Positions 13,325 to 54,236 of a DNA stretch of 56,983 nt are shown here, piece after piece. Below the pieces are notes generated by a model, which was given only the letters and a program-made list of their open reading frames with translations, had not been told where the DNA came from and did not search any database. Numbering within the stretch: position 1 is the first letter of the stretch; every line of letters starts with the position of its first letter. The DNA is from an uncultured Acidobacteriota bacterium (GTDB lineage Bacteria; Acidobacteriota; Vicinamibacteria; Fen-336), in the NCBI GenBank assembly GCA_902826455.1, contig CADEEV010000029.1, forward strand, positions 1 to 56,983, written 5' to 3'. The position numbers and the translations under genes were made by a program.

Positions 13325-13341
13325 GGCCGACCATCCTAGCC

Positions 13342-13767
13342 CTATTCGCAGGCGCCCAGCTGCCGCATCAGCGTCAGCTCGTCCGTGACCCGATGATGGC
13401 CCACGATGCGCCCGCCGCGGATGCGCTCGATCGTCATCTGCTGGACGCGCACGGCGCGGCCCGTCGGCGCAAGGCCGAAGAAGTCGCCCTGGTGGGTCCC
13501 CGTCAGCGTGGTGCGAACCGCCACCGCGTCCTCGGTCGCCACCATGTCCTCGATCGCGTAGCGCAGGTCGGGGAAGGCCTCGCGCAGGGCCCGCACCACG
13601 ATCGCGACCCCGTCGCGGCCTCGCGGCAGATCGGGGCTGCCGGGGGAGTGGTTCACGTAGTCCTCGGCGAGCAGCTCCTCGACGAGCTCCAGACGGCCCC
13701 GGCCGAAGAGCTCGTCGAAGTAGCGGCGGATCAGGTCCTCGTTGCGGACGACGCTCGGTAGCTTCAT
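13342..13767 (-). CDS. SnoaL-like ester cyclase/polyketide cyclase family protein
   Basis: 141 residues, one alpha+beta-barrel SnoaL-like domain. The family pattern is visible: RRYFDELFGRG, VEELLAEDYVNHSPG, LREAFPDLRYAIEDMVATED, TLTGTHQGDFFGLAPTGR. Most bacterial members have no known substrate; some isomerise or cyclise small lactones and polyketides. Divergent from a LysR regulator with a 69-bp gap, so it is a likely target of that regulator. DUF1624 copy 1 follows 17 bp downstream on the same strand. Confidence 0.88.
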   Translation of the reverse strand: MKLPSVVRNEDLIRRYFDELFGRGRLELVEELLAEDYVNHSPGSPDLPRGRDGVAIVVRALREAFPDLRYAIEDMVATEDAVAVRTTLTGTHQGDFFGLAPTGRAVRVQQMTIERIRGGRIVGHHRVTDELTLMRQLGACE

Positions 13768-13788
13768 GGCTCCAAGCTAGGCATCGCC

Positions 13789-13825
13789 CTGTGATCTGTC
13801 CAAGACTGCTTTCGGGAGCTGTGAT
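13789..13825. promoter_or_regulatory. Direct repeat in the snoaL/lysR divergent promoter
   Basis: CTGTGAT occurs at 13789-13795 and again at 13819-13825, 30 bp apart, i.e. about three helical turns on the same face. It lies in the 69-bp gap between the SnoaL-like gene and the LysR gene. Half-site spacing of this kind fits a regulator binding site, but LysR boxes are normally imperfect palindromes (T-N11-A), so the assignment is tentative. Confidence 0.3.
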
Positions 13826-13836
13826 ACCAATGGCGT

Positions 13837-14730
13837 ATGAACGCACCCGCCGACCTCACGTTGCTGAACTCGTTCGTGGCCGTGGCCGAGGAGCTGCATT
13901 TCGGCCGCGCCGCCCAGCGCCTGCACATCGCCCAGCCCCCGCTCAGCATGCGCATCCGGCGTCTCGAAGAGGATCTCGGCGTGCGCCTGCTCGAGCGCTC
14001 GCGCCGCCACGTCGCGCTGACGGAGGCCGGCGCCTTCCTGCTCGTCCGGGCCCGGGACCTGCTGAGCGAGGCGGAGCGGGCGCAGGTCGAGACGCAGCGC
14101 GTCGCGCGGGGCGAAGGCGGCGTGCTGTCGATCGGTTACACCCCCACGGCGACCTTCGACGTGCTGCCGAAGGTGCTGGCGGCGTTCCGGAAGCGACGCC
14201 CGGACGTGCGTCTCGAGCTGCGCGAGATGGCGAGCCCGGAGCAGCCCGAGGCCCTCCGGCGTGGCCGCATCGAGCTCGGATTCGCGTGCGGTCCCGTCGG
14301 CGCCGACGGGCTTCGCGAGGACGTCCTCGGTCGTGAGGGCCTGGTCCTGGCGTTGCCCGCGGGCCATGCCCTCGCCCGCGAACGGCGGGTGGCCCTCCGG
14401 CGCCTCGCCGCCCTGCCTTTCGTCCTGGTCAGGCCTGAGATCGAGCCCGCCTGGGCCCAGGCCTCGCTCGCGGCGCTCCGGGAGCACCGCGTCGCGATCG
14501 ACGTGGTCCAGGAGGCGGACTCGAAGATCGCCCAGCTCGGCCTCGTGGCGGCGGGCGTCGGGCTGGCCCTGGTCTCGGAGTCGGTGCAGTGTCTGGGCCG
14601 CAAGGGAGTCGTGTTCCGGGCCTTGACGGGCCTCGATCTGCGCCTGCCGCTCGTGCTGCTCTCGGCGGAGCCGTCGACGCCCCGGGCCCGCGAGTGCGCC
14701 GGCCTCGCGCGGGCCGCCGCCGGCGCTTGA
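13837..14730 (+). CDS. LysR family transcriptional regulator
   Basis: 297 residues, normal length. The N-terminal winged helix-turn-helix (about 4-65) reads LLNSFVAVAEELHFGRAAQRLHI and SMRIRRLEEDLGVRLLERS, the classic LysR DNA-binding segment. A linker helix and a two-lobe effector domain follow from about residue 90 (SIGYTPTATFDVLPKVLAAF). The effector is likely a small organic acid, as in most of the family. Divergent from the SnoaL-like gene and followed 46 bp later by an aminotransferase. Confidence 0.94.
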   Translation: MNAPADLTLLNSFVAVAEELHFGRAAQRLHIAQPPLSMRIRRLEEDLGVRLLERSRRHVALTEAGAFLLVRARDLLSEAERAQVETQRVARGEGGVLSIGYTPTATFDVLPKVLAAFRKRRPDVRLELREMASPEQPEALRRGRIELGFACGPVGADGLREDVLGREGLVLALPAGHALARERRVALRRLAALPFVLVRPEIEPAWAQASLAALREHRVAIDVVQEADSKIAQLGLVAAGVGLALVSESVQCLGRKGVVFRALTGLDLRLPLVLLSAEPSTPRARECAGLARAAAGA

Positions 14731-20910: not shown

Positions 20911-21927
20911 ATGCCGAAGCCAAGCGAAGGGGTCGTCGTGGAGGCCGCGGGCCGCGAGGTGCCCGTCTCGAACCCCGACAAGATCTACTTCCCGGAGGCG
21001 GGCATCCGCAAGATCGAGGTGGTCCGCTACTACGTGGCCGTGGCCGAGGGCGCGCTCCGCGGCTCGGGAGGCCGGCCGAACGTGATGGTGCGCTACGCCG
21101 ACGGCATCCACGGCGAGTTCTTCTACCAGAAGCGCGCGCCCGCCTCGCGGCCCGACTGGATCGAGGTCGCGGCCCTCAGCTTCCCCTCGGGGCGCAAGGC
21201 CGAAGAGATCGTGCCCCGCGACGCCGCGGCCCTGGCCTGGCTCGCGAACCTCGGCTGCCTCGAGCTGCACCCGCATCCCGTGCGCGCCGAGGATCTCGAT
21301 CACCCCGACGAGCTGCGCGTCGACCTCGACCCCATGCCCGGCATCGAGTGGCCGCAGATCGTGGCGGTGGCATTGCAGGCGAAGGACGTCCTCACGGAGG
21401 CCGGGCTCCGGGGCTGGCCCAAGACCTCGGGGTCGCGCGGCATCCACGTGAACGTGAGGATCGAGCCGCGCTGGTCGTTCACCGAGGTGCGGCGTGCGGC
21501 CCTCGCCCTCGCCCGCGAGGTCGAGCGGCGCGTGCCCGAGCTCGCCACCAGCAAGTGGTGGAAGGAGGAGCGCCACGGGGTCTTCATCGACTACAACCAG
21601 AACGCGAAGGACCGCACGGTCGCCGGCGCCTACTCGGTGCGGCCCAAGCCCGACGCGCGGGTCTCGGCGCCGCTCACGTGGGAAGAGCTCGGCACCTGCC
21701 GGCCCGAGGAGTTCACGCTGCGCACCATGCCCGCGCGCTTCGCGGAGCTGGGCGACCGCCACGCGGACATCGACGCCCATGCCGGCCGCCTCGACGCGCT
21801 GCTGGAGCTCTCGGCGCGGCAGGAGAAGGAAGGGCTGGGCGACGCCCCCTGGCCCCCGCACTACGCGAAGCAGTCGGGCGAGCCGCCGCGCGTGCAGCCC
21901 TCGAAGCGCAAGCGCGAGGAGCCCTGA
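20911..21927 (+). CDS. LigD-type DNA primase/polymerase (PolDom) protein
   Basis: 338 residues, a stand-alone archaeo-eukaryotic primase-type polymerase domain as in the N- or C-terminal part of LigD. Visible motifs: VSNPDKIYFPEAGIRK, RVDLDP (catalytic Asp pair), KTSGSRGIHVNVRI and VFIDYNQNAKDRTVAGAYSVR. These enzymes add ribo- or deoxyribonucleotides at breaks and gaps. Here it is not fused to the ligase; a separate ATP-dependent ligase gene converges on it with a 1-bp gap. The TATGTT box ends 7 bp before the ATG, pointing to leaderless transcription. No Ku gene is visible in the window. Confidence 0.92.
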   Translation: MPKPSEGVVVEAAGREVPVSNPDKIYFPEAGIRKIEVVRYYVAVAEGALRGSGGRPNVMVRYADGIHGEFFYQKRAPASRPDWIEVAALSFPSGRKAEEIVPRDAAALAWLANLGCLELHPHPVRAEDLDHPDELRVDLDPMPGIEWPQIVAVALQAKDVLTEAGLRGWPKTSGSRGIHVNVRIEPRWSFTEVRRAALALAREVERRVPELATSKWWKEERHGVFIDYNQNAKDRTVAGAYSVRPKPDARVSAPLTWEELGTCRPEEFTLRTMPARFAELGDRHADIDAHAGRLDALLELSARQEKEGLGDAPWPPHYAKQSGEPPRVQPSKRKREEP

Positions 21928-21928
21928 G

Positions 21929-22999
21929 TCAGGCGCCGAAGATCAGGCCCAGCTCCGCCGGCGGCGCCACCTCGAGCTGATCGTACCGGCAGTCCCCGGG
22001 CGACTTGTCGGTGCGCCAGCGCAGGAAGTGGGCGGCGTGGCGGAAACGATCGCCCTGCATGTGGTCGTACTTGACCTCGCACACGCGCTCGATGCGAAGC
22101 GGCTCCCAGGACAGGTCCTTGCCGGCGCTCCAGCGGCTCTGGGCTCCGGGGCGCCGCTGCAGCGTCTCGCCCGGTTCCGCCCAGTCCCGCCACGGATGAC
22201 TTTCGAGGGCGGCGTCGCGCAGGGGGGCGAGCTCCAGGGCGAGCTCCCGGCGCACGGCCATCGGAAACGACGACGTGACGCCGACGTGCTGCAACACGCC
22301 GTCGTCGTCGTACAGGCCGAGCAGCAGCGAGCCCACGAGCGTCCCCGGACCCTGCTTGTGCCAGCGGAAGCCGGCCACGACGCAGTCGGCGCTGCGCACG
22401 TGCTTGATCTTGAGCATGCTGCGCTTGCCGGGCTCGTAGGCGCCCTCCGCGCGCTTCGCGATGACGCCGTCGAAGCCCGCGCCCTCGAAGCGGTGGAACC
22501 AGTCCTCGGCGACGCTGCGCTCGCGCCGGCACGGCGTCAGGTGGAGCCGGGGCGCCGGAGCCGCGAACAGGGCCTCGAGCCGCGACCGGCGCTCGGCCTG
22601 GGGCCGGACCCGCAGGTCCTCGTCGCCCACGGCGAGCAGATCGAAGGCGACGAACGACGCCGGCTGCTCGGCCGCGAGCTTCTTCACCCGCGACGCCGCG
22701 GGATGCAGGCGCATCTGGAGGGCGTCGAAGTCGAGGCCCCGCGGGCTCACGCTGACGATCTCGCCGTCGACCACGCAGCGCTCGGGCAGGTGCGCGCGGA
22801 AGAGCTCCTCGAGCTCGGGGAAATAGCGGCCGAGAGGCTTGAGGTCGCGGCTCTGGAGGAAGACCTCGTCCCCGTCACGGAAGACGAGGGCCCGGAACCC
22901 GTCCCACTTGGGCTCGAAGAGCCAGCCGTCGCCCTCCGGCAGCGCGTCGGCGAGCTTTGCCAGCATGGGCTCGACGGGCGGCGCGATGGGGAAGGCCAT
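21929..22999 (-). CDS. ATP-dependent DNA ligase (LigD/LigC-like)
   Basis: 356 residues: adenylation domain plus OB-fold. The lysine nucleophile is in FEPKWDGFRA (motif I, about residue 31). Other motifs are VVDGEIVS (III), FVAFDLLAVG (IIIa), DGVIAKRAEGAYEPGKRS (IV) and MLKIKHVRSADCV (V). It seals nicks using ATP, in the bacterial repair (not replication) ligase group. ATG 22999 shares its A with the exonuclease III stop (TGATG). It is the last gene of the polX-unknown-xthA-lig operon. Confidence 0.93.
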   Translation of the reverse strand: MAFPIAPPVEPMLAKLADALPEGDGWLFEPKWDGFRALVFRDGDEVFLQSRDLKPLGRYFPELEELFRAHLPERCVVDGEIVSVSPRGLDFDALQMRLHPAASRVKKLAAEQPASFVAFDLLAVGDEDLRVRPQAERRSRLEALFAAPAPRLHLTPCRRERSVAEDWFHRFEGAGFDGVIAKRAEGAYEPGKRSMLKIKHVRSADCVVAGFRWHKQGPGTLVGSLLLGLYDDDGVLQHVGVTSSFPMAVRRELALELAPLRDAALESHPWRDWAEPGETLQRRPGAQSRWSAGKDLSWEPLRIERVCEVKYDHMQGDRFRHAAHFLRWRTDKSPGDCRYDQLEVAPPAELGLIFGA

Positions 23000-23880
23000 C
23001 AGCGCCTGGCCTCGAGGCGCGCGGCGATGCGTCCCTCGGCCGAGGCCCAGCCCGCGTCGAACGGGTGCCCCGGCTCGTCCACGTCCATCAGCAGCGGCGC
23101 GTGGTCCGAAGGGATGGGCTTGCCCTTGCGGGCCTCGCGGTCGATCTCGCTCGCGACCACGCGGGCGGCGAGGGGCGCCGTGGCGAGCAGGTGGTCGATG
23201 CGCATGCCGAAGTTCTTCTGGAAGCTGCCGGCCCGGTAGTCCCACCAGGTGTAGCGCCCGCCCTCCGGCCTCTGACGTCGATAGACGTCGACGAGCCCCC
23301 AGCGGCACAGCCGGTCGAAGGCCTCGCGCTCCCGCGGCGACACGTGGGTGCCGCCGTGGCACAGGCGCGGGTTCCAGACGTCGTCGTCGGTCGGCGCCAC
23401 GTTGTAGTCGCCGCCGAGCACCAGCGGCTGGCCGGGGTCGCCGCTCTCGGCGAGCCAGCGGGCCAGGCGCAAGAACCAGTCGAGCTTGGCCTCGTAGAAG
23501 GGCGAGTCCACGACGCGGCCGTTCGGCGCGTAGAGGCTCACCACGCGGACGTCGCCGCACGTCGCCGCGAGCATGCGGGCCTCGGAGCCCGGCTCGTCGT
23601 CGCCGCTGCCCGGCGTGCGCGCCGGCAGGACCGGGTCGCCGAAGTTCGTGACGACGTCCGTGATCGGGAGCCGGCTCGCGATCGCGACGCCGTTCCAGCG
23701 GCCCTCGCCGTGGTGGGCGAGCTCGTATCCGAGCTCCTGGAAGGCGGCGAGCGGCGCGTCTTCGTCCTTGAGCTTCGTCTCCTGCATCAGGAGGACGTCG
23801 GGTCGGGCCCGCTCCAGCCACCAGCGCACCTTGTCGATGCGGGCTCTCAGCGAGTTGACGTTCCAGGTGGCGATGCGCAC
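22999..23880 (-). CDS. xthA: Exodeoxyribonuclease III / AP endonuclease
   Basis: 293 residues, exonuclease-endonuclease-phosphatase fold. MRIATWNVNSLRAR, LLMQETKL (metal Glu), VSLYAPNG, LGGDYNVAPTD (Asp/Asn), WWDYRAGSFQKNFGMRIDH and SDHAPL (catalytic Asp-His) are all intact. It nicks DNA at abasic sites and trims 3' ends. Its stop overlaps the ligase ATG, and only 9 bp separate it from the unknown gene upstream, so it is clearly co-translated with ligase and PolX in a base-excision/strand-break operon. Confidence 0.95.
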   Translation of the reverse strand: MRIATWNVNSLRARIDKVRWWLERARPDVLLMQETKLKDEDAPLAAFQELGYELAHHGEGRWNGVAIASRLPITDVVTNFGDPVLPARTPGSGDDEPGSEARMLAATCGDVRVVSLYAPNGRVVDSPFYEAKLDWFLRLARWLAESGDPGQPLVLGGDYNVAPTDDDVWNPRLCHGGTHVSPREREAFDRLCRWGLVDVYRRQRPEGGRYTWWDYRAGSFQKNFGMRIDHLLATAPLAARVVASEIDREARKGKPIPSDHAPLLMDVDEPGHPFDAGWASAEGRIAARLEARR

Positions 23881-23889
23881 GCGGTCTCC

Positions 23890-24492
23890 TCAGGAAGCGG
23901 CGCGAGGCCGGGGGGTGAGCCGCGCGGGGCGCGCGCCGCGGCGCACCGCGCCGTCGAGGGGCACGTAGTCGAGCTCGCGGCCGGCGTCGACCGCGCGCAG
24001 CAGCAGGCCGCCCCGGCTCATGTCGCCCCGGCCCACGAACGCGGCGGGGAAGAGCAGGCGCCGGCCGAGCACCGGGGTCAGCAGGTCCGCGTACTTCTTC
24101 GACGCGACGCTTCCCAGGAGCACGACGTCGGCGTTCCCCCAGGTCGGCGCGAGAGCCGCGAGGTCGCGCCGGAGCGGATCGCTGTAGCGTGGCTCGTCGG
24201 GATCCACGTCGACCGCGGCGTAGCGCGCCAGGTCGGGGAGGTGGAGGCGGTCCTCGGGGGAGCGCAGGCCGTCGCACGGCGTGATGACGTGGAGGCCCGC
24301 GCTCGCGAAGGCGCGCGCGTACGCGAGCTTGCCGCGGAAATAGAGGCTGCTCACGAAGCTGAAGACCTCCCCCAGGGCCGCGCCGTCGGCGTCGCGCAGC
24401 CGGCGGCTCAGGTCGGAGCCCGCGTCCGGGCGCTGCAGCATCCGCGCGCGCTGGCCCGAGCAGTTCGCCGGCGAGAGCAGGAAGACCTTCAT
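23890..24492 (-). CDS. Unknown protein in DNA-repair operon
   Basis: 200 residues, no signal peptide or membrane segment. Conserved-looking segments are [44 protein letters not shown] and [16 protein letters not shown]. The arrangement [11 protein letters not shown] ... GLxxPE is faintly like the DUF6884/YaaA group, but I cannot place it with confidence. The Arg/Pro-rich C-terminus could bind DNA. Its ATG overlaps the polX stop (ATGA, 24489-24492), and the next gene is xthA. Translational coupling on one side and a 9-bp gap on the other suggest a direct role in the repair step run by PolX, ExoIII and ligase. Confidence 0.75.
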
Positions 24493-26228
24493 TGCCGGCG
24501 CGCCCGCACCCACTCGAGGAAGCGCTTGCGCGGCCAGGTGTTCGCGATGCGGGCGGGATCCACCCAGCCCCGCATGGCGTGCTCCACGCCACCGTCCATG
24601 CGCTGCAGTTCGCGGGTGTGGTGGCTGTCCGTGCTGAGGACGAACGTCACGTCGAGCCCGCGGGCGCGATACAGCACCTCGCTCGAGAGGTCGAGGCGCC
24701 CGAGCGCGCAGTTGATCTCGAGAGCCACGCCGGTCTCCGCGGCCTTCTTCAGGACGGCGTCGACGTCGACGTCGATGCCGTGGCGGTGGCCGATGCGCCG
24801 GCCCGTCAGGTGGGCGATCGCGTTGACCGTACGGTCCTCCATGGCGGCGAGCACCCGCTGCGTCTGCTCGCCACGGCCGAGCTCGAAGTGGGAGTGGACC
24901 CCGGCCACGCACCACTCCAGGCGGCGGCGGAAGGCCGGGTCGTAGTCGAGGCCGCCGTCGCGGCCGATGTTGAGCTCGCAGCCCTGGAGTAGCGTCGTCT
25001 TCCTGAAGCGCGGCCGCAGGGCGTCGATCTCCTCGCGCTGGGCCAGCAGGCGCTCGCGGCTGACCCCGTTCATCGCGAGGTCCTCGCCGTGGTCGGTGAG
25101 GGCCAGGTACTCGTACCCGCGCTCCGCGGCCGCGGCGACGATCTCCTCGAGGCTGCTCTTGCCGTCGCCCGAGAGGGCGGTGTGCACGTGGAGATCGCCG
25201 CGCATGTGCTTCGGCAGCAGGCTGAGGGGCAGCTCGCCCGCGAGGGCGGCCTCGACCTCGCCGTGGTCCTCGCGCAGGGGAGCCGGGACGAGGGGCAGGC
25301 CCAGGGCCGCGTAGATGTCGGCCTCGGTCTTCGAGGCGATGACCTTGCCCGTGGCCGTCTCGGTCAGGCCGTACTCGTTCAGGAGCCAGCCGCGCTCGAG
25401 GGCGCGCTGCCGCAGCTTGATGTTGTGGGACTTGGAGCCCGTGAAGTACTGGCAGGCCGCCCCGAACTGCCGCGGCTCCACGAGGCGCAGGTCGACCTGG
25501 AAGCCGCTCGCCGTGAGCACCGAGGTCTTGGTCTCGCCGCTGCCGATCACGTCGCGGACCATCGAGAGCGCGAGAAAGGCTTCGCGCACGGCCTCGGGCT
25601 TGCGGGTGGCCGCCACGACGTCGATGTCGGCCACGGTCTCGCGCAGGCGCCGCAGGCTGCCGCAGAACTGGACGCGCTCCACCTCGGGCAGCGCTCCGAG
25701 CGCCGCGACCAGCTCGCGCGCGATGGGCATGGCCTCGGCGATGGGCCGCCGCTTGTCCTTGCCGGTCTCGCCCATGCGGCTCACGGCCTGCAGGATCTTC
25801 TCCTCGGCCTTCGCTCCGAGCCCGCGCAGGTCCCGCAGCTTCTGAGCCGCCAGGGCGGCGCGCAGGTCGTCGATGTTGTGGACGCCCAGCTCGCTCCGCA
25901 GCCGGAGGAGCGTCTTGGGGCCCACGCCCGGGATGCGGCTCAGGGCGACGAAGGCCGGCGGGTACTTGGCTCGCAGGCCTTCGAGCTTCTCGATCGTCCC
26001 GGTGTCGAAGAACTCCCGGATCTTCTTCGCGGTGCTCTCGCCGATCCCGCCGACCGCGACGAGCTCCTTGAGGGACAGGGTCGACAGCTCGCCCCTGTAG
26101 GTCGTGATGGCCTCCATGGCGTTCTCGTAGGCTCGGGCCCGGAAGGACATGGTGGAGCCTTCGTCGAGGACCGTGAGCTGCGCCATCTCGCGGAACAACG
26201 CCACGAGGGACTCGTTGTGGCTGGCCAT
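24489..26228 (-). CDS. polX: DNA polymerase X family protein with PHP phosphoesterase domain
   Basis: 579 residues. N-terminal helix-hairpin-helix region (about 1-150: [24 protein letters not shown]), then the Pol beta-type nucleotidyltransferase core [17 protein letters not shown] with its DxD aspartates. A third Asp lies in QVDLRLVEP, and a thumb follows ([20 protein letters not shown]). The C-terminal PHP domain (about 335-579) has [22 protein letters not shown] and STDSHH metal ligands. Full bacterial PolX architecture: gap-filling polymerase plus 3'-5' exonuclease/phosphatase. First gene of the repair operon. A TAGACT box ends 6 bp before the ATG, so the operon may be leaderless. Confidence 0.95.
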
Positions 26229-39353: not shown

Positions 39354-39410
39354 AAGTCTGGCGACTTCCGCGCCGGGATTCCGATCTCCCGGGTGACGGA
39401 GGTTCCACCC

Positions 39411-40607
39411 GTGTCGAGCCAGGCCCGCGCCGTACCCGACGTCACGCGCGTCCAGTCCATTGATCTGTTGAGAGGCACGGTCATGGTCATCATGGCCCTC
39501 GACCACGTCCGTGCCTACTTCCATGCCGCCGCCCTCGTCCACAGCCCCACGGACCTGGAGCGCACCAGTGTCATCCTCTTCTTCACCCGCTGGATCACCC
39601 ACTACTGCGCGCCGGTGTTCGTGTTCCTGGCCGGCGTTTCGGCCCACATCTACGGGGCGCGTCGCGGCCGGCAGGTGCTTTCGACCTTCCTCTGGACGCG
39701 GGGCCTCTGGCTCGTCTTCACGGAGCTCTTCATCCTGTCGTTCTTCCGGACCTTCAACCCCGCGTTCCCCTACTTCAACCTGCAGGTCATCTGGGCGATC
39801 GGCCTGTGCATGCTGATCCTGTCCGTCCTGATCCGCCTCGAGACGCGCTCCATCCTACTGATCGGGCTGGCGTTGATCGTGGGCCACAACCTCCTCGACA
39901 CGGTCCACGTCGCCGGCGACGGCATTCCCGCGTTCCTCTGGGCGGTGCTCCACGAGACGCGGCGCTTCACCTTCGGCCCCTTCCTGGTCAACGTGCAGTA
40001 CCCGCTCTTGCCGTGGATCGGCACCATGGCGGTGGGCTACTGGTTCGGCGGCCTGTACACGAGCGAGCAGCCTGCGCGCCGGCGGAGGATCCTGCTGCTC
40101 ACGGGGCTGGTCGTCACCCTGGTCTTCATCGACCTGCGTTTCCTCAACGGGTATGGCGACCCGGCTCCCTGGTCGGCGCAGCGCTCGATCGCCTTCGAGA
40201 TCCTCTCGTTCCTGAACCTCACGAAGTACCCGCCGTCGCTGCTCTACCTGGCGATGACGCTGGGGCCGGCGCTCGTCTTCCTCGCGTGCACGGAGCGCGT
40301 GCCTCGCGAGGTCGCCGCACCGATCGCGCTGTTCGGCAGGGTGGCGATGTTCTACTACCTCGCCCACATCCTCCTGATCCACAGCGCCGCCACGCTGGCG
40401 GCTCCCCTCGGCGGGTACTCCATGTCCGACATGGTGCTCTCGAGCAGCCTGATCGACACGGCGGCGTTGAAGGGCTACGGCTACGGGCTGCCGACGGTCT
40501 ACCTGGTCTGGATCGGCCTGGTCCTCGTCCTGTACCCCTGCTGCCGTTGGTTCGATCGCTACAAGAGGGCGCACCAGTCGACGCACTGGTGGCTCAGCTA
40601 CCTCTAG
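39411..40607 (+). CDS. DUF1624 (HGSNAT-like) integral membrane protein, copy 2
   Basis: 398 residues, about ten membrane helices. SIDLLRGTVMVIMALDHVR, TRWITHYCAPVFVFLAG and LQVIWAIGLCMLIL match copy 1 (12095-13324) closely along the length, including the C-terminal WWLSYL. Putative membrane acyltransferase. Start GTG 39411 preferred, as GGAGG lies just upstream; an earlier in-frame GTG (39393) lacks an RBS. Confidence 0.86.
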   Translation: MSSQARAVPDVTRVQSIDLLRGTVMVIMALDHVRAYFHAAALVHSPTDLERTSVILFFTRWITHYCAPVFVFLAGVSAHIYGARRGRQVLSTFLWTRGLWLVFTELFILSFFRTFNPAFPYFNLQVIWAIGLCMLILSVLIRLETRSILLIGLALIVGHNLLDTVHVAGDGIPAFLWAVLHETRRFTFGPFLVNVQYPLLPWIGTMAVGYWFGGLYTSEQPARRRRILLLTGLVVTLVFIDLRFLNGYGDPAPWSAQRSIAFEILSFLNLTKYPPSLLYLAMTLGPALVFLACTERVPREVAAPIALFGRVAMFYYLAHILLIHSAATLAAPLGGYSMSDMVLSSSLIDTAALKGYGYGLPTVYLVWIGLVLVLYPCCRWFDRYKRAHQSTHWWLSYL

Positions 40608-46774: not shown

Positions 46775-48541
46775 TCACAGCACCTCCGACCACTTCGGCG
46801 ACGCCGCGAATGCAGCGTGGATCAGCCCCACGTGGGAGTAGGCCTGGGGGAAGTTGCCCCACATCCGCATGGTCGAAGTCTCGAGGTCCTCGGAAATGAG
46901 ACCCAGCGGCGACAGTACGGCATGCACGCGATCCATCACGGTCTTTGCGTCCGCGTGGCGCCCGACGAGCGCGAGCGCCTCCACAAGCCAGAAAGTGCAG
47001 ATCGTGAATGCGACTGTCGGCTGGCCGAAACCGTCGTCGAGGCGGTAGCGAAACAGCCAGCCTTCATTCGAGAGGCGGGCGCGTATGCCGTCGATCGTGC
47101 CGGTCAGCCGCCGATCATCGACCGGCAGGAGGCGCAGGGTCGCCATCTGCAGGAGGGCGGCATCCAGGTCGCCGCCGCCGTAGGTGCCGGCGAAGGCGCC
47201 CAAGGCCGGATTCCAGGCCTTCGCAAGGATCTCTTCCCGGATCCGCGTCGCGGCCTGCTCGAACTCGTGAAGGGTCGCGGGCGTATGCAAGGCAGCCACC
47301 CGGCCCATCCTGTCGGCGGCGGCCCAGGACATGAGACTCGAGAAGGTCTGCGGCTTCCACTCGGTCCGGTATTCCCAGATGCCAGCGTCCGGAGTCCCGG
47401 CGAGCGCGATCGCCTTCCGGGCGAGCCGCTGGATCAGGTCGAGCGTCGCCTTGGACCGCTCCGCGCTGAAGCGCTCGTCGAGAAAGACCGGCGTCAACGC
47501 CAGCACCATTTCGCCGAAGATGTCGTTCTGCGAATGCCGGGCCGCCCCGTTTCCCACGCGTACAGGTCCTTCGCCGCCGAATCCCGGCCAAGAGTCCAGC
47601 ACGCGCTCTTCCAGGTCCGTGCCCCCGTCGACTCGATAGAGGGGCGCAAGCTTCAAGTCGGGAGCGGAGGCGGCGACGTTGAGCAGGTACTCGATGAAGT
47701 GCTCGCGCTCTTCGAAATGGCCCAGGAGCCTGAACGCGCCCAGCACGTAGTACGCGTCACGAAGCCAGCAGTAGCGGTAGTCCCAGGTCCGGCCGCTTCC
47801 CGGTGACTCGGGAATCGACGTCGTCATTGCCGCGACGATCGCGCCTGTGTCCTCGAAGCAGTGGAGCTTGAGCGCCAGCGCCGAGCGAATCACCTCGCGC
47901 TGATACTGCGACGGGATGTCGCAGTGCTTCACCCAGCGTTGCCAGTAGCGCAGCGTCTCGGCCAGGAAGCGGTCGCACACCGGAGCCAGTGGCTCCTCGA
48001 TGGGCGCTCCCCAGGTCAGGGCGAGGTAGCGCCGCCCGGTAAGCGCGAACGGATGACCGGCGACAAAGGACAGCGGGATGTCGGTCGTGAGGCGCAGGGA
48101 GCTCGCGAAGCCCTCGAAGCGCAGATGGTTGGAGCCTTGGAGGACGGCGGGCACAGCCTTGGACCATCCGAGCCGCGGCTCGCACTCGACTCGAACAAGC
48201 GGCGTCCCCTCGATCGGCTCCACGACCCGGAAGAGCTGCGTGGGTCGGAAGATCCGATCGTGCTGCGTGAAGCGAGGAGCGAAGTCCAGCACGCGGAACT
48301 TGCCGCTCGTGGTCTCGAAGGTCGTCTCCAGCACGTTCGAGTTCTCGAGGTAGCGCTGCGATCCCATCCCGCCGTCCGCCGCGCCCACGACGAAGCGGCC
48401 GCCCGACTCGTGGTCGAGGAGCGTCGAGAACACCGGCTCGGAGTCGAAGCGCGGCAGGCAGCACCAGACCACGTCACCGCTGCGACCGATCAGGGCCGAG
48501 AACTGGCAGTTGCCGATCAGGCCGAGGTCTTCCAGGCGCAC
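46775..48541 (-). CDS. GH15 family glucoamylase/trehalase
   Basis: 588 residues. N-terminal beta domain (RLEDLGLIGNCQFSALIG, WCCLPRFDSEPVF) followed by the (alpha/alpha)6 barrel: SIPESPGSGRTWDYRYCWLRDA, DGGTDLEERVLD, AGIWEYRTEWKPQTFSSLMSWAA. The two catalytic Glu are probably in LEERV and WEYR. Related bacterial GH15 enzymes hydrolyse trehalose or alpha-glucans. Divergent from otsA, which makes trehalose-6-phosphate, so the locus can both make and degrade trehalose. Start GTG 48541 fits the family N-terminus exactly; TATATT ends 6 bp before it, so the mRNA may be leaderless. Confidence 0.93.
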   Translation of the reverse strand: MRLEDLGLIGNCQFSALIGRSGDVVWCCLPRFDSEPVFSTLLDHESGGRFVVGAADGGMGSQRYLENSNVLETTFETTSGKFRVLDFAPRFTQHDRIFRPTQLFRVVEPIEGTPLVRVECEPRLGWSKAVPAVLQGSNHLRFEGFASSLRLTTDIPLSFVAGHPFALTGRRYLALTWGAPIEEPLAPVCDRFLAETLRYWQRWVKHCDIPSQYQREVIRSALALKLHCFEDTGAIVAAMTTSIPESPGSGRTWDYRYCWLRDAYYVLGAFRLLGHFEEREHFIEYLLNVAASAPDLKLAPLYRVDGGTDLEERVLDSWPGFGGEGPVRVGNGAARHSQNDIFGEMVLALTPVFLDERFSAERSKATLDLIQRLARKAIALAGTPDAGIWEYRTEWKPQTFSSLMSWAAADRMGRVAALHTPATLHEFEQAATRIREEILAKAWNPALGAFAGTYGGGDLDAALLQMATLRLLPVDDRRLTGTIDGIRARLSNEGWLFRYRLDDGFGQPTVAFTICTFWLVEALALVGRHADAKTVMDRVHAVLSPLGLISEDLETSTMRMWGNFPQAYSHVGLIHAAFAASPKWSEVL

Positions 48542-48547
48542 GGCAGC

Positions 48548-48575
48548 AATATACCTCTTTTAGTTGCGACTCAAA
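48548..48575 (-). promoter_or_regulatory. Promoter of the GH15 gene
   Basis: Minus strand: TTTGAG (48575-48570), 16-bp spacer, TATATT (48553-48548). Transcription would start at or next to the GTG at 48541, so translation would be leaderless. The MarR-type palindrome lies over the -35 and spacer. Confidence 0.5.
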
Positions 48576-48578
48576 CTA
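48561..48578. promoter_or_regulatory. MarR-type operator in the trehalose divergent promoter
   Basis: The 18-bp sequence TAGTTGCGACTCAAACTA is an imperfect palindrome (TAGTTG...mAACTA with one mismatch). This is the usual shape of MarR/OhrR-family operators (TAGTTGnnnnnCAACTA). It lies between the GH15 and otsA starts. A MarR gene closes the otsAB operon, so autoregulation is likely. Confidence 0.65.
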
Positions 48579-48601
48579 GTATGTGCTCCAATGACCGGGC
48601 T

Positions 48602-50845
48602 ATGCGTCGCGCGGTCCGGTTCCTGATGGCGCTCGTGGTCGCTCTGGCCCTCGTGGCGTGGGTGGGATCCGCCATCGTGCATCGGACCACCCGCGCCTGG
48701 TTCGAGAAGGACGTCAGCTTGCGTGCCCAGCTGGTCGTGAGCGGTGCGCGCCAGGCACTGGCCACGCACTGGCGCAAGGAGCAGCGCTCGGAGCTTCAGG
48801 GGCTGCTGGCCGAGATAGCCCACGACGAGCGCATCATGGCCGCGGCCGCTTGCGCCGCCGACTTCACCACTCTCACGCGGACCAAGGATTATCCCGACCA
48901 GTTCGGCTGCGCCGATCTCGGACCGCACGTGCGACCGAGCGCCGACTCACCGGCGGAGGAATGGAAGGCGTGGGGGACGGTGGCGACGCTTCCCGGCGGC
49001 GACGTTCACGTCAGCGCCATTCCGGTGCTCGACGCCGAGCACCCGCTGGGCTTCGTCGTGCTCGTCCACGACCTGAGCTTCGTCCAGCGCCGCGAGGCAA
49101 CGACACAGCGGTTCATGTTGCTCGCCTTCGGCCTGTTGGCGGCCACGGCCGCTATCGTCACGATCGTCACGGCTCGGCTCGCCTGGCGCGGATGGAGCGA
49201 CGAACTGCGCGGCATTCTCCGCAGCGGGACGAAGCGTCCGGAGTTCCAACCCATCCTGCGCGACGTCCGCGACCTCGTCGATCGAATCGTCGCCGAGAAG
49301 CAGTCCGATCGCGACGGCGGAGCCTGGACGCCTCAACGCCTCAAGCACACGCTCAACCGCTACCTGCACGGGGAGAAGGTCGTCATCCTGGCCAACCGCG
49401 AGCCTTACGTCCACGAGCACACGAAGAGCGGCACCATCGAGGTGCTGCACCCGGCGAGTGGCCTCGTGACGGCCCTGGAGCCCGTCATGCGGGCTTGCTC
49501 GGGAGTCTGGGTCGCCCATGGAAGCGGATCGGCGGACAAGCAAACGGTCGACAAGCAGTCACGCGTGGCCGTTCCTCCGGGGGAGGAGTCCTACCTGATC
49601 CGGAGGGTCTGGCTCTCGCCCGAGGAGGAGAAGGGCTACTACTACGGCTTCTCCAACGAAGGGCTCTGGCCGCTCTGCCACATCGCCCACGCCCGCCCGA
49701 TCTTCCGCAGCGAGGACTGGAAGCACTACCAGGCCGTGAACCAGAGGTTCGCCGACGCGGTCTGCGAGGAGGTCGATTCCGAGGATCCGATCGTGCTGGT
49801 GCAGGACTACCACTTCGCCCTGGCGCCGCGCCTGATCCGGGAACGGCTGCCGCGGGCCACGGTGATCATGTTCTGGCACATCCCCTGGCCCAACTCGGCG
49901 CGCCTCGGCATCTGCCCATGGCGCAACGCGCTGCTCGAGGGAATGCTGGGCGCCAGCATCCTGGGCTTCCACACGCAGTTCGACTGCAACAACTTCGTGG
50001 AGTCCGTCGATCGCTTTCTCGAGGCGCGCATCGACCGGGAACAACAAGGAGTCGTGCAGCACGGTCGCACGACCCTGGTGCGGCCCTACCCGATCTCCCT
50101 GGAATGGCCTGTTCGCTGGTCCAGCACGACGCCGCCGGCGGCCGAGTGCCGACGCGCGCTGTGTGAAGAGTTGGAGCTGCCTCCGAATGCCCTGATCGGA
50201 GTCGGGGTGGACCGGCTGGACTACACGAAGGGCGTCGAGGAACGGCTCCTGGCGGTGGAGTGCCTGCTCGACCGTTACCCCGAATACCGCGGCCGGTTCA
50301 CGTTCATCCAGCTCGCGGCGCCCAGCCGGACGGTGATCGAGCGCTACCAGCAGTACAACGACAGCGTGGAGAAGCTCGCGGCCCGTATCAACGAGCGCTT
50401 CGGCGAGGGTAGCTATCGCCCCATCGTCCTGCTGAGACGGCACCATGAGCCGCCTGTGGTCTTCCGGTACTACCGAGCCGCCGACGTGTGCTACGTGAGC
50501 AGCCTCCACGACGGAATGAACCTGGTGGCCAAGGAGTTCATCGCGGCCCGCGAGGACGAGCGTGGCGTCCTGGTGCTCAGCCAGTTCACCGGGGCCGCGC
50601 GCGAGCTGACCGAGGCCCTGATCGTGAACCCGTACGACCTGGGAGAGGCCAGCGCGGCGCTCGCCACGGCCCTCACCCTGTCGACCGAGGAGCAACGCGA
50701 TCGCATGCGCTCGATGCGCGCGTTCCTGGCCGAGTTCAACGTCTACCGCTGGGCCGGACGCATGCTCGCGGACGCGGCGCGCCTGCGCAGCCGCGATCGG
50801 CTCACGGGACGCCTCACGGACCACTTGGCGGCCGCCGCGCGATGA
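48602..50845 (+). CDS. otsA: Membrane-anchored trehalose-6-phosphate synthase (GT20)
   Basis: 747 residues, longer than cytosolic OtsA (about 460-490). N-terminus: TM1 (about 7-25), a periplasmic region of about 130 residues, TM2 (about 175-197), and a HAMP-like linker (LRDVRDLVDRIVAEK). The GT20 synthase follows from about 255 to the end: VVILANREPYV, FWHIPWPN, GVDRLDYTKGVEERL (UDP-glucose and G6P contacts) and SLHDGMNLVAKEF. It makes trehalose-6-phosphate from UDP-glucose and glucose-6-phosphate. The sensor-like module could tie synthesis to envelope or osmotic state. ATG 48602; an in-frame ATG at 48581 is also possible. The stop overlaps otsB (ATGA). Confidence 0.93.
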   Translation: MRRAVRFLMALVVALALVAWVGSAIVHRTTRAWFEKDVSLRAQLVVSGARQALATHWRKEQRSELQGLLAEIAHDERIMAAAACAADFTTLTRTKDYPDQFGCADLGPHVRPSADSPAEEWKAWGTVATLPGGDVHVSAIPVLDAEHPLGFVVLVHDLSFVQRREATTQRFMLLAFGLLAATAAIVTIVTARLAWRGWSDELRGILRSGTKRPEFQPILRDVRDLVDRIVAEKQSDRDGGAWTPQRLKHTLNRYLHGEKVVILANREPYVHEHTKSGTIEVLHPASGLVTALEPVMRACSGVWVAHGSGSADKQTVDKQSRVAVPPGEESYLIRRVWLSPEEEKGYYYGFSNEGLWPLCHIAHARPIFRSEDWKHYQAVNQRFADAVCEEVDSEDPIVLVQDYHFALAPRLIRERLPRATVIMFWHIPWPNSARLGICPWRNALLEGMLGASILGFHTQFDCNNFVESVDRFLEARIDREQQGVVQHGRTTLVRPYPISLEWPVRWSSTTPPAAECRRALCEELELPPNALIGVGVDRLDYTKGVEERLLAVECLLDRYPEYRGRFTFIQLAAPSRTVIERYQQYNDSVEKLAARINERFGEGSYRPIVLLRRHHEPPVVFRYYRAADVCYVSSLHDGMNLVAKEFIAAREDERGVLVLSQFTGAARELTEALIVNPYDLGEASAALATALTLSTEEQRDRMRSMRAFLAEFNVYRWAGRMLADAARLRSRDRLTGRLTDHLAAAAR

Positions 50846-51612
50846 GGGACATCCTCTCCCGCACCGGCCGCGAGGTCCTTCGACAATTCACCTGGTCGAA
50901 CGTGCTCCTGGCCTTCGACTACGACGGAACCCTCGCGCCCATCGTGCGCGACCCCAACAAGGCCGCGATGCGCGCGAACACGCGCCGGCTGCTCGCTGCT
51001 GTCGCGCGCCGCTATCCGTGCATCGTCGTTTCAGGCCGTGCCCAATCGGACGCCCAACACTGGCTTCGAGGAATTCCTCTGGAGCAGGTCGTCGGCAACC
51101 ACGGGATCGAGCCGTGGCAGGCCACTCGGCCGTTGATGAACGAGGTCGAGCGCTGGGCACCGCTGCTCGGTCGGCGGCTGGCACCGCTCAAGGGAGTGCG
51201 CATCGAAAACAAGACCTTCTCCGTCGCCGTGCACTACCGGAGGTCAAGGGAGAAGAAGAGGGCACGCGCAGCGATCCTGGATGCCGCCGCCAGCCTTGGC
51301 GCTGTCCGGCTGATCGGCGGAAAGCAGGTAGTCAACATTCTGCCCAAGGATGCTCCACACAAGGGCATCGCGCTGGAAAGAGAGCGGGAGCGGCTACGCC
51401 ACGACACGGCCATCTACGTGGGCGACGACGAAACAGATGAGGATGTCTTCGCTCTCGATCAGCCGGGCCGGCTTCTGACGGTTCGCGTGGGTCCGAAGCG
51501 GCTCTCGCAGGCCTCGTACTTCCTCAAGAACCAGGCCGCCGTGGACGAGTTCCTCGAGACTCTCGTCATCTTCCGGCAGGAGCCGGAACTGGCCCTCGCG
51601 GCCCAGTCATGA
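50842..51612 (+). CDS. otsB: Trehalose-6-phosphate phosphatase
   Basis: 256 residues, HAD phosphatase. FDYDGTLAP (Asp26 nucleophile, Asp28 acid), VSGRAQ, and GDDETDEDVFAL (motif IV, Mg2+) are intact. Converts trehalose-6-phosphate to trehalose. Translationally coupled to otsA (ATGA) and to marR (ATGA). Together the operon is otsA-otsB-marR-small ORF. Confidence 0.95.
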   Translation: MRDILSRTGREVLRQFTWSNVLLAFDYDGTLAPIVRDPNKAAMRANTRRLLAAVARRYPCIVVSGRAQSDAQHWLRGIPLEQVVGNHGIEPWQATRPLMNEVERWAPLLGRRLAPLKGVRIENKTFSVAVHYRRSREKKRARAAILDAAASLGAVRLIGGKQVVNILPKDAPHKGIALERERERLRHDTAIYVGDDETDEDVFALDQPGRLLTVRVGPKRLSQASYFLKNQAAVDEFLETLVIFRQEPELALAAQS

Positions 51613-52076
51613 GCCCCAAGCTCGCGCTTGCTCCCGCTCAACCGTCGCTGGGCGAGGTGCTCGACTTCATGCGACTGATCTGGGCGCTCCACCATGGGCT
51701 CCAGAGCAAATCGAAGCGCATGAAGGGCGCCATCGGCGTGACGGGACCGCAGCGCCTCGTCATCCGCATCGTGACCCGGTTCCCGGGCATACCTGCAGGC
51801 CAGATCGCGCAGCTCCTGCACGTGCACCCGAGCACGTTGACGGGAGTCTTGAAGCGCTTGGAGAAGCAGGGCTTGATTCATCGGCGGCCCGATCCCAAGG
51901 ACGGCCGACGCGCCTTCCTCGGGATCACGGAGAAGGGCAAGCGCGTCGACATGGCGGCGGTAGGAACGGTCGAAGCCACCGTCGCTCGGTTGCTGGCGCG
52001 GACGTCGAAGTCGAAGCTGGAGGCGGCGCGTGCCGTGCTGTCGGACCTGGCCTTCGATCTCTCGAAGGAGCAGTAG
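51609..52076 (+). CDS. MarR family transcriptional regulator
   Basis: 155 residues, winged helix. IAQLLHVHPSTLTGVLKRLEKQGLIHRRPDPKDGRRAFLGITEKG is the MarR DNA-binding signature with the wing DxRRxxLxIT. Its ATG overlaps the otsB stop. Operator candidate at 48561-48578 in front of otsA and GH15. A MarR-controlled otsAB locus is unusual; ligand unknown. Confidence 0.94.
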   Translation: MSPKLALAPAQPSLGEVLDFMRLIWALHHGLQSKSKRMKGAIGVTGPQRLVIRIVTRFPGIPAGQIAQLLHVHPSTLTGVLKRLEKQGLIHRRPDPKDGRRAFLGITEKGKRVDMAAVGTVEATVARLLARTSKSKLEAARAVLSDLAFDLSKEQ

Positions 52077-52078
52077 CG

Positions 52079-52267
52079 GTGCCGGCCGAGAAACAGCACG
52101 TCCTCACTGGCCTCGTTCGGTTGCGTGACCATTGCACTTTCACGTGGGAACAACCCGAGGGCGAACCGCAGCGGACCGCCATCGTCCGAGACACTCACTG
52201 CGAACAGTGCGTTACGGCAGCTCGAAAGCTGGGATACCTCCTGCGTTCGAGCACCGAGCAGGTCTAG
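52079..52267 (+). CDS. Small Cys/His protein, last gene of the otsAB-marR operon
   Basis: 62 residues, GTG start 2 bp after the marR stop. Contains DHCTFTW and HCEQCV: three Cys and two His that could bind a metal or act as redox thiols. No known family. Placement in the coupled operon supports its being real; coding character is uncertain because the gene is short. Possible co-sensor for the MarR protein. Confidence 0.5.
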   Translation: MPAEKQHVLTGLVRLRDHCTFTWEQPEGEPQRTAIVRDTHCEQCVTAARKLGYLLRSSTEQV

Positions 52268-52287: not shown

Positions 52288-54060
52288 TCACGCGTCGTCG
52301 TCGTCCGTGGCGCGCGCCAACGCCGCGGCCACGTCCGTCAGGCTGATCAAACCTTCGAGCTTGCGGGTGTCCTTGCGGTTGACGACGGGCAGCTCGGCCA
52401 CCCCCAAGCGTCCGAGCTTGACGAGCACCGTATCCAGCGTGTGGTCCGGGTGGGCGTGCACTGAAGGCCGCCGAACGAGCTCGTCGAGTCTTCGCGCCCG
52501 CTCTTCCACGCCGGTAGCCCGCGAGATCTCTCCGGCATCCAGCATCCCGACCAGCCGGCCCTCCTCGTCCACGAGCGGATAGCCTTGTTGCTGGCCTGCG
52601 GAGTTCAAGAGCCGTGCGTTCGCCTCCTCCAGCGTCCAGTCCCGCTGAAGCGTCACCGGCTCGCGCTTCATCGCCGCTCCGGCCCGCACCTGCCGGAGCC
52701 GATGGCCGCTGGCGTGTGGCATGTGAATGCCGTCCTGCAGCAGGAGCGCGTCATAGATGGGCATCGGGGACAGCCTCCGGGCGATGGCATAGCTCGTGAT
52801 ATTCGCCACCATGAGAGGCAAGATCACCGAGTAGTTGTTGGTCATCTCGAAGATGATCACGATCGAGGTGATGGGCGCCCGCACGATGCCGGCGAAGACG
52901 GCTCCCATGCCCACCAGCACGAAGGCCCCTGGTTGTGTCGCGGGGTCTCCGAGCAACAGGCTCGCAAGTATTCCAACGACGCCTCCGAGCATGCCGCCAA
53001 TGTACAGCGAGGGCCCGAAGATCCCGCCCGAAGACCCCGAGGAGTAAGAGACCACGGTTGCGGCCAGCTTGAACGCGCCCAGGATGAGCAGGAGCTTCAG
53101 CGGCATCCCGCCTTGCAGACCGTCCGCCAACTGCTGGTAGCCGACCCCGAAGACGCTCGCCGAGCCCGTGAGCAGAAGGGCCGAGAGCCCGAGCAACCCC
53201 AGCACGAAGCCGCCCACGCCGGGAGTCGCCCACGCGGGCACATGGCGCTGCTCTCGAAACCAGGCGCGAAGCCGGAGCAGTGAGACGTTGAACGCCACAG
53301 CGGCTACCCCAGCGGCGAGTCCGAGGAGGGCGTAGAACGGCAGCTCGCTGACGCTGTTCAGCCTGTACGCGGGCACGCTGAAGAGGGCGTGTTCCCCGAG
53401 CAGCCAGCGTTCCACGACGGAGGCGATGACCGACGCGATCACGATCGATCCGAGGGGCTTCGCGGCCGTGTCCCCGAGGATCTCCTCCAGCGTGAACGTC
53501 ACGGCTGCGATCGGGGTATTGAACGCCGCGGCAAGTCCCGCCGCGGCGCCGACCGGCACGAGGCTGCGCTGACCCTCTCGCGACAGGTCGAACACCCGGC
53601 CCAGCAGCGAGGCGATTGCGGCGCAGATCTGCACTGTTGGCCCTTCGCGTCCGAGGCTCGCGCCCGTCCCGATGTTGATTGCCGGCAGGAGCATCTTGGC
53701 GGGGATCACGCGAGCCGGAATACGACCGCCCTCGAGCACGAAGGCAGCTTTCACCTGAGGAATGCCGCTCCCACGAGCCTCGGGCGCGAAGAAGTACAGG
53801 GCAGCGCCGGCCAGTAGGCCGCCCATCACCGGGACGAGGATCAGAAGGGGCGCGCGCCAGGGGCCTGGCGTAGCCGCCGCCCGGTAGATGATTCCGCTCT
53901 GGAGGGATTCGAGCAGCCAGTGAAAGGCCACCGCGGCCAAGCCGCACAGACCGCCGATCAGGAACGTGAGGAGATGGAGCTTCTGGCTCTCACGGACCGG
54001 CAGCCGATTGAGGAGCCGGCGCGCCTGAATCTGGCCACGCCGCCACTTCCGTCCCCGCAT
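52288..54060 (-). CDS. ClC family chloride channel/antiporter with CBS domains
   Basis: 590 residues. ClC core of about 410 residues: the selectivity motifs GSGIPQVKA, GREGPTVQ and GGIFGPSLYIG are present, and GREGP holds the gating Glu. Two CBS repeats close the protein (VTLQRDWTLEEANARLL and VHAHPDHTLDTVLVKLG). Bacterial ClC proteins exchange Cl-/H+ in acid stress or conduct anions. ATG 54060 preferred over an in-frame TTG 30 bp upstream. Two base pairs of unusual TAGGAT/TTAC sequence precede it. Ends 20 bp from the small operon gene, convergent. Confidence 0.93.
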   Translation of the reverse strand: MRGRKWRRGQIQARRLLNRLPVRESQKLHLLTFLIGGLCGLAAVAFHWLLESLQSGIIYRAAATPGPWRAPLLILVPVMGGLLAGAALYFFAPEARGSGIPQVKAAFVLEGGRIPARVIPAKMLLPAINIGTGASLGREGPTVQICAAIASLLGRVFDLSREGQRSLVPVGAAAGLAAAFNTPIAAVTFTLEEILGDTAAKPLGSIVIASVIASVVERWLLGEHALFSVPAYRLNSVSELPFYALLGLAAGVAAVAFNVSLLRLRAWFREQRHVPAWATPGVGGFVLGLLGLSALLLTGSASVFGVGYQQLADGLQGGMPLKLLLILGAFKLAATVVSYSSGSSGGIFGPSLYIGGMLGGVVGILASLLLGDPATQPGAFVLVGMGAVFAGIVRAPITSIVIIFEMTNNYSVILPLMVANITSYAIARRLSPMPIYDALLLQDGIHMPHASGHRLRQVRAGAAMKREPVTLQRDWTLEEANARLLNSAGQQQGYPLVDEEGRLVGMLDAGEISRATGVEERARRLDELVRRPSVHAHPDHTLDTVLVKLGRLGVAELPVVNRKDTRKLEGLISLTDVAAALARATDDDDA

Positions 54061-54236
54061 GTCGCTTCGACGCTCTACCGCTGCCTCCAAAACCGCGGGC
54101 TCATCCTAGCAGTAATTGATTTGACCTCCAACCATTCGTGCGGTCCCTCGCGTGGACGGCATGGCGGGAGCGGGCGCCCTAGCGGTCAGCAGCCGAGGCT
54201 CGGAGGGAATCCCGTCTCGGGGTGAGTTGAAAAGGT

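Follow-up and report, generated by a model that had tools for sequence, protein, structure and literature searches.

We analyzed a trehalose locus in a 56,983-nucleotide stretch of DNA (the window; contig CADEEV010000029.1) from an uncultured Acidobacteriota bacterium, where a GH15 gene diverges from an otsA-otsB-marR unit, and we give a probability of about 60% to the reading that this locus is a two-level trehalose control module, combining MarR control of transcription with a sensor on the trehalose-6-phosphate synthase OtsA itself. On the first level, a MarR dimer would bind a 16-bp operator at 48562-48577, between the two divergent units, and would repress both of them together, including itself as the last gene of the otsAB operon, until some cue, most probably tied to osmotic or ionic stress, lifts the repression and allows joint production of the synthetic and hydrolytic enzymes. 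On the second, OtsA would be anchored in the inner membrane, with an extracytoplasmic PAS/Cache-type sensor adjusting cytoplasmic trehalose-6-phosphate synthesis post-translationally and so setting the direction of trehalose flux. The evidence is comparative throughout, and consists of the computed gene order, the MarR clade with its neighbors, the conservation of the operator, the predicted fold of the sensor and the conserved catalytic motifs.

The GH15 gene (46775-48541, minus strand) has a GTG start at 48541, and homologs favor the ATG at 48602 as the probable start of otsA (open reading frame, ORF, 48581-50845, plus strand). With this start assumed, the divergent gap measures about 60 bp (48542-48601) and should contain both promoters. 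On the plus strand, ATGA overlaps occur at both the otsA/otsB and the otsB/marR junctions, in keeping with the coupling noticed in a first-pass annotation made from the sequence alone. That annotation also let one MarR switch between synthesis and breakdown, which is not what the gap predicts: one operator between two starts some 60 bp apart implies co-regulation of GH15 and otsA-otsB-marR, and co-repression of trehalose synthesis and breakdown is the likely outcome. A reciprocal switch was set aside on the same ground. Making synthase and hydrolase jointly is sensible if the direction of flux is set elsewhere, and the OtsA sensor is the obvious place for this.

The MarR clade and its genomic neighbors

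The marR gene (51609-52076, plus strand) encodes a helix-turn-helix regulator (PF01047, 2.4e-15) whose winged-helix domain scores above the Pfam cut-offs (PF01047 56.6 bits vs 24.6; PF12802 54 vs 27). Profiles were built for GH15, OtsA, OtsB and MarR and mapped onto all loci or genome contigs compared with the window locus, which are labeled with L-numbers. The GH15 / otsA-otsB-marR order was found in two groups, namely group 1 (L113, L114, L039 and L040, as well as L117/L118, where it is split over two contigs) and group 2 (L045, L047, L053 and L082); L199 has this layout too. In a tree of 52 MarRs, 18 group-1 members, the window MarR among them, made up one clade (SH-aLRT 99) and five group-2 members another (97), both separate from the control MarRs taken from these genomes, though many long control branches leave the deeper joins unsure. 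Searching the phylum and class by profile yielded 29 group-1 members beyond the six seeds, 12 of which are in the tree and 17 of which were recruited later by E <= 1e-35 and stand outside it. By gene order and tree, the link between MarR and trehalose recurs across phyla, with a second MarR clade holding the same locus position in other phyla.

The six seed loci had been chosen for otsA adjacency and were left out of the neighbor test. Among the 29 non-seed members, 19 had otsA/B, ClC or MscS genes within ~6 kb, compared to 2 out of 20 control MarRs from the same genomes (Fisher p 1e-4), and in both of these controls the neighbor was a ClC gene. In L151 and L186, the OtsA lacks the sensor, otsA-otsB and marR point away from each other, and marR is followed by an MscS gene; this arrangement argues that the MarR link goes with the trehalose pathway and not with the sensor type. 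In L113, L114 and L039, GH15 is followed immediately, on its own strand, by a ClC gene, and ClC is thus likely a member of the same regulon elsewhere. The ClC and MscS partners, both overlooked in the first-pass annotation, point to osmotic or ionic stress as the likely context.

These partners also bear on a rather unlikely alternative, in which two MarR lineages with different ligands were recruited separately to the locus, and the ligand of the window MarR is a small aromatic or sugar-derived molecule, the regulator governing how trehalose is stored and used as a carbon source, with no relation to osmotic stress. The two groups are indeed distinct clades with different operators at the same place (the group-2 gaps of L045, L053 and L082 carry TTTGATATCAAA), and the nearest NCBIfam model of the window MarR is HpaR, at 53 bits and below its cut-off of 121. 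Against this stand the ClC and MscS neighbors of group 1, which fit ion or osmotic functions, and the fact that no catabolic aromatic genes were seen near otsA.

Separately, L165 and L166, two related genomes of which one is the window's own, have a ClC gene beside a MarR unrelated to this clade. This second MarR is divergent from ClC (L165:3640-5830, L166:3694-5884), and the palindrome-like ATATATCGTAGCACGATA is common to both MarR/ClC gaps.

A predicted operator shared within the clade

The 16-bp operator consensus AGTTTGANNTCAAACT, written from a second, later locus set and not from the window, was found upstream of many group-1 clade members. For the motif test, upstream regions were defined by gene positions, and 16-mers aligned by eye in five group-1 gaps were evaluated by a leave-one-out position weight matrix (PWM). 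The training sites were AGTTGGAGTACCAACT (L113), AGTTGGTGCTCAAAGT (L114), GCTTGGAACTCCAAGT (L039), GCTTGGATATCCAAGC (L040) and AGTTGCGACTCAAACT (window, 48562-48577; minus strand AGTTTGAGTCGCAACT). In each of the five gaps the gap's own site scored best (p 0.0005 to 0.0045), and the PWM built without the window picked exactly 48562-48577 (p 0.003). Loci outside the training set gave GTTTTGAGTTCAAACG (L151, p 0.003), GATTTGAGGTCAAACT (L158, p 0.008) and AGTTGGAGGACAAACC (L159, p 0.001), with a combined p of 2e-6 over 11 loci. The second set added AGTTTGACGTCAAACT (L186, p 0.001, in a gap of ~30 bp) and CGTTTGACCTCAAATT (L199, in the GH15/otsA gap, p 0.012), together with sites in L189 (p 0.001), L190 (0.001), L193 (0.004) and L195 (0.008); no operator site was found in its remaining loci. 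Conservation of the palindrome with this MarR lineage, named beforehand as a test that could overturn the proposal, was thus seen both in the leave-one-out comparison and at independent loci, and 48562-48577 is probably the operator of the neighboring MarR.

Covariation between regulator and site may also be present: the recognition-helix region reads GT-[IL]-SA in L039 and L040, compared to ST-[LV]-[TS]-G, and the outer operator bases are GC compared to AG, a pattern that rests on two sequences.

The longer palindrome TAGTTGCGACTCAAACTA (48561-48578), of which 5/9 arm pairs match, had been placed over the GH15 promoter; it is present, although it sits between both starts and not at the GH15 promoter alone. 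Judged by its symmetry alone, it does not exceed chance: against dinucleotide shuffles, the best palindromes of the GH15/otsA gap have p 0.34. This, and the AT-rich, promoter-like character of the sequence within a GC-rich genome, would suit a by-product of overlapping divergent promoters that no regulator binds. We consider such an origin improbable in view of the leave-one-out and independent-locus tests, the absence of the site from most MarR-negative gaps, and a center and 16-bp geometry that stay constant across loci.

In the window genome, AGTTTGANNTCAAACT has no match with two or fewer mismatches. At three mismatches there are 16 sites, 15 of them inside long ORFs, and 48562-48577 is the sole one outside; 1.8e-4 such sites are expected in 60 bp. 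A distant regulon is not claimed from the other sites, all 15 of which lie within long ORFs. The scan is relevant to the proposal that the main targets of MarR are its own gene and those for ions and turgor (ClC, MscS), with the trehalose genes as passengers in its operon and with the OtsA sensor and general stress regulators determining the trehalose level. As a neighbor, ClC is no rarer than otsAB (15 and 14 of the 35 clade members, respectively), and L148, L153, L156 and L157 have ClC near the clade MarR and no otsA. Operator sites nevertheless occur in otsA-serving gaps without a nearby ClC (L151, L186 and L040), and in the window genome the one site that falls outside long ORFs belongs to the GH15/otsA gap and does not precede ClC, so that we regard this proposal as unlikely.

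Two further gaps deserve mention. In L037 (5945-5970), a strong operator-like TCGTTTGGACTCAAACGA lies between a TTGACA box and otsA, where a regulator may act from elsewhere. The MarR-negative GH15/otsA gap of L069 (~5970-6004) has TTTACTTT and AAAGTAAA arms, separated by 11 bp, that may represent symmetric divergent promoters.

A sensor fused to OtsA

The first-pass annotation had passed over the sensor in OtsA, a protein of 754 residues. Its N-terminal module (residues ~8-260, 48602-49360, plus strand) shows two hydrophobic segments by hydropathy over residues 1-260 (~8-36 and ~175-202). AlphaFold2, using 54 sequences, modeled this part as a transmembrane (TM) helix, a PAS/Cache-like domain (of the PAS/sCache type), a second TM helix and a helical linker (pLDDT 87.6, pTM 0.68). 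Foldseek with the predicted sensor domain retrieved CitA (1p0z, E 6e-5) and WalK (4ywz, E 1e-4), and VIA-align to the WalK sensor 4ywz gave Z 14.6 and 2.4 A over 130 residues. OtsA residues 1-260 are consequently predicted, from the model, to be two TM helices around an extracytoplasmic PAS/Cache-type sensor of the WalK/CitA fold. Cys91 and Cys110 of the sensor are both kept in 50/54 homologs, and three of the four exceptions have neither; their joint presence or absence suggests a disulfide between them.

The fusion is widespread, as judged from 80 loci in a scan of genome contigs, most of which have the same OtsA N-terminal extension. Their titles name Acidobacteria, Planctomycetota, Myxococcaceae, Bdellovibrionales, Nitrospira, Gemmatimonadetes and Alpha-, Beta- and Gammaproteobacteria. 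More tentatively, and with a chance that we put slightly below even, OtsA may in many phyla be a one-component receptor enzyme, whose extracytoplasmic PAS/Cache sensor would let an outside signal gate trehalose-6-phosphate synthesis directly across the membrane, with no kinase or transcription step, and with the MarR repressor setting the amount of enzyme in a subset of lineages.

In L158 (675-2415), an otsA fragment before otsB keeps the sensor region (query 3-189) and has no GT20 domain, and could be a decayed gene, an assembly error or a sensor-only remnant.

The trehalose enzymes

The GT20 trehalose-6-phosphate synthase (TPS) domain of OtsA (49376-50842, plus strand) starts near residue 266 (PF00982, 6.6e-118, 395 bits). 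It aligns to residues 13-480 of the solved TPS 5jij, with agreement in the conserved donor and acceptor motifs. On TIGR02400 it scores 410 bits, below the equivalog cut-off of 565, and by this measure OtsA is a related subfamily and not the curated equivalog. The otsB gene (50842-51612, plus strand; PF02358, 1e-27) encodes a trehalose-6-phosphate phosphatase (T6PP) above the family cut-off (TIGR00685, 101 bits vs 68). The GH15 protein (588 aa) carries PF00723 (1.8e-41) and the trehalase N-terminal domain PF19291 (TREH_N, 3.5e-14). Among NCBIfam models it comes closest to the archaeal trehalases TreH1 and TreH2, without reaching the cut-off of either (TreH1 296 bits vs 820), and no PDB sequence match was obtained at 0.001. 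The candidate catalytic residues Glu390 (WEY) and Glu551 (SED) match the GH15 trehalase Glu motifs as quoted in PMC10232917, and we call the protein trehalase-like, with a putative trehalase activity.

The two sub-threshold scores, 410 on TIGR02400 and 296 on TreH1, could mean that the substrate of GT20 and GH15 is a different glucoside and that they neither make nor split trehalose. This is the least probable of the alternatives, given an OtsB that passes the T6PP cut-off, an OtsA score far above the 288 obtained on glucosylglycerol-phosphate synthase, and the agreement with 5jij.

Weighing the control module

Several findings weigh against the two-level module. MarR is missing from the surroundings of many closely related loci (L033, L035, L038, L041-L043 and the Nitrospira loci), and MarR control is consequently not essential to the module; some clade members, such as L152, L191, L196 and L197, have neither a recognizable site nor trehalose genes. 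L037 has an operator match (p 0.005) with no MarR nearby. The window operator itself combines one perfect AGTTTGA half-site with one degenerate half-site, 3/14 fixed positions being off. The predicted promoters of the GH15/otsA gap are weak, and a consensus scan of the gap found no sigma-70-type promoter. The OtsA N-terminus has no clear match to any Pfam sensor or HAMP model; among the 54 sequences, CHASE4 was weak in five, dCache_3 occurred in one and HAMP in none. Soluble OtsA elsewhere functions without a sensor module. The steps that we infer for the module are DNA binding, repression, the cue, the topology and gating of OtsA, and GH15 trehalase activity.

Other genes of the window

The small ORF after marR (ORF62, 52079-52267, plus strand, 62 codons) had been counted as part of the coupled operon. 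Its start lies 2 nt beyond the stop codon of marR; it has no homolog in any related locus compared and no family match above cut-off in Pfam or NCBIfam, and its third-position GC content (GC3) is 0.71, compared to 0.80-0.88 in the other genes of the locus. On these sequence features ORF62 is doubtful and cannot be named a gene. A ClC-type chloride transporter with CBS domains (52288-54090, minus strand; PF00654, 9e-100) is convergent with marR.

Elsewhere in the window, three DNA-repair-like genes lie close together (20911-26228) and, read by eye only, form a possible split non-homologous end-joining set: one resembles a stand-alone LigD-type primase-polymerase (20911-21927, plus strand), the C-terminal half of the next an ATP-dependent DNA ligase (21929-24592, minus strand), and the third a PolX-type polymerase (24489-26228, minus strand). 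Two similar predicted multi-pass membrane proteins with an acyltransferase-like look (12095-13846, minus strand, and 39393-40607, plus strand) are apparently paralogs.

Comparison with known systems

Apart from a few models, little is understood of how bacteria tie trehalose synthesis to an osmotic or drying signal from outside. With a conserved operator and a defined MarR clade, the transcriptional side of the module lends itself to direct testing, and through the sensor-OtsA fusion an extracytoplasmic signal may exert direct allosteric control. In the literature searched, which missed most subscription papers, no prior description was found of MarR control of trehalose, nor of a sensor-OtsA fusion or membrane OtsA. 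MarR control of compatible solutes is already known, since ectoine and glycine betaine synthesis are under the MarR-type repressors EctR1 and CosR (PMC7876524); what appears new is such control of trehalose, together with its operator and the receptor-like OtsA. In the MarR neighborhoods read by eye, no ect or bet genes were noticed, with no profile search aimed at them.

The window shares with the OtsA/OtsB pathway the same two enzymes (GT20 and T6PP) and their conserved motifs; E. coli OtsA (PDB 1gz5, 456 residues) has no sensor, whereas a two-TM sensor module is joined to the window OtsA. With the histidine kinase sensors WalK, CitA and DcuS it has in common the predicted fold and the TM-sensor-TM layout, but the output is a glycosyltransferase and not a kinase, and the Cys pair is conserved in the OtsA family. 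The GH15 protein resembles the mycobacterial and archaeal (TreH) GH15 trehalases in its GH15 and TREH_N domains and in both Glu motifs, and differs in falling below the TreH1/TreH2 equivalog cut-offs and in its recurrent adjacency to otsA. Finally, like EctR1 and CosR, the window regulator is of the MarR type and adjoins compatible-solute synthesis genes, with direct repression assumed here; in this case, however, trehalose is the solute, the operator region is shared with a trehalase-like gene, and a sensor forms part of the synthase itself.

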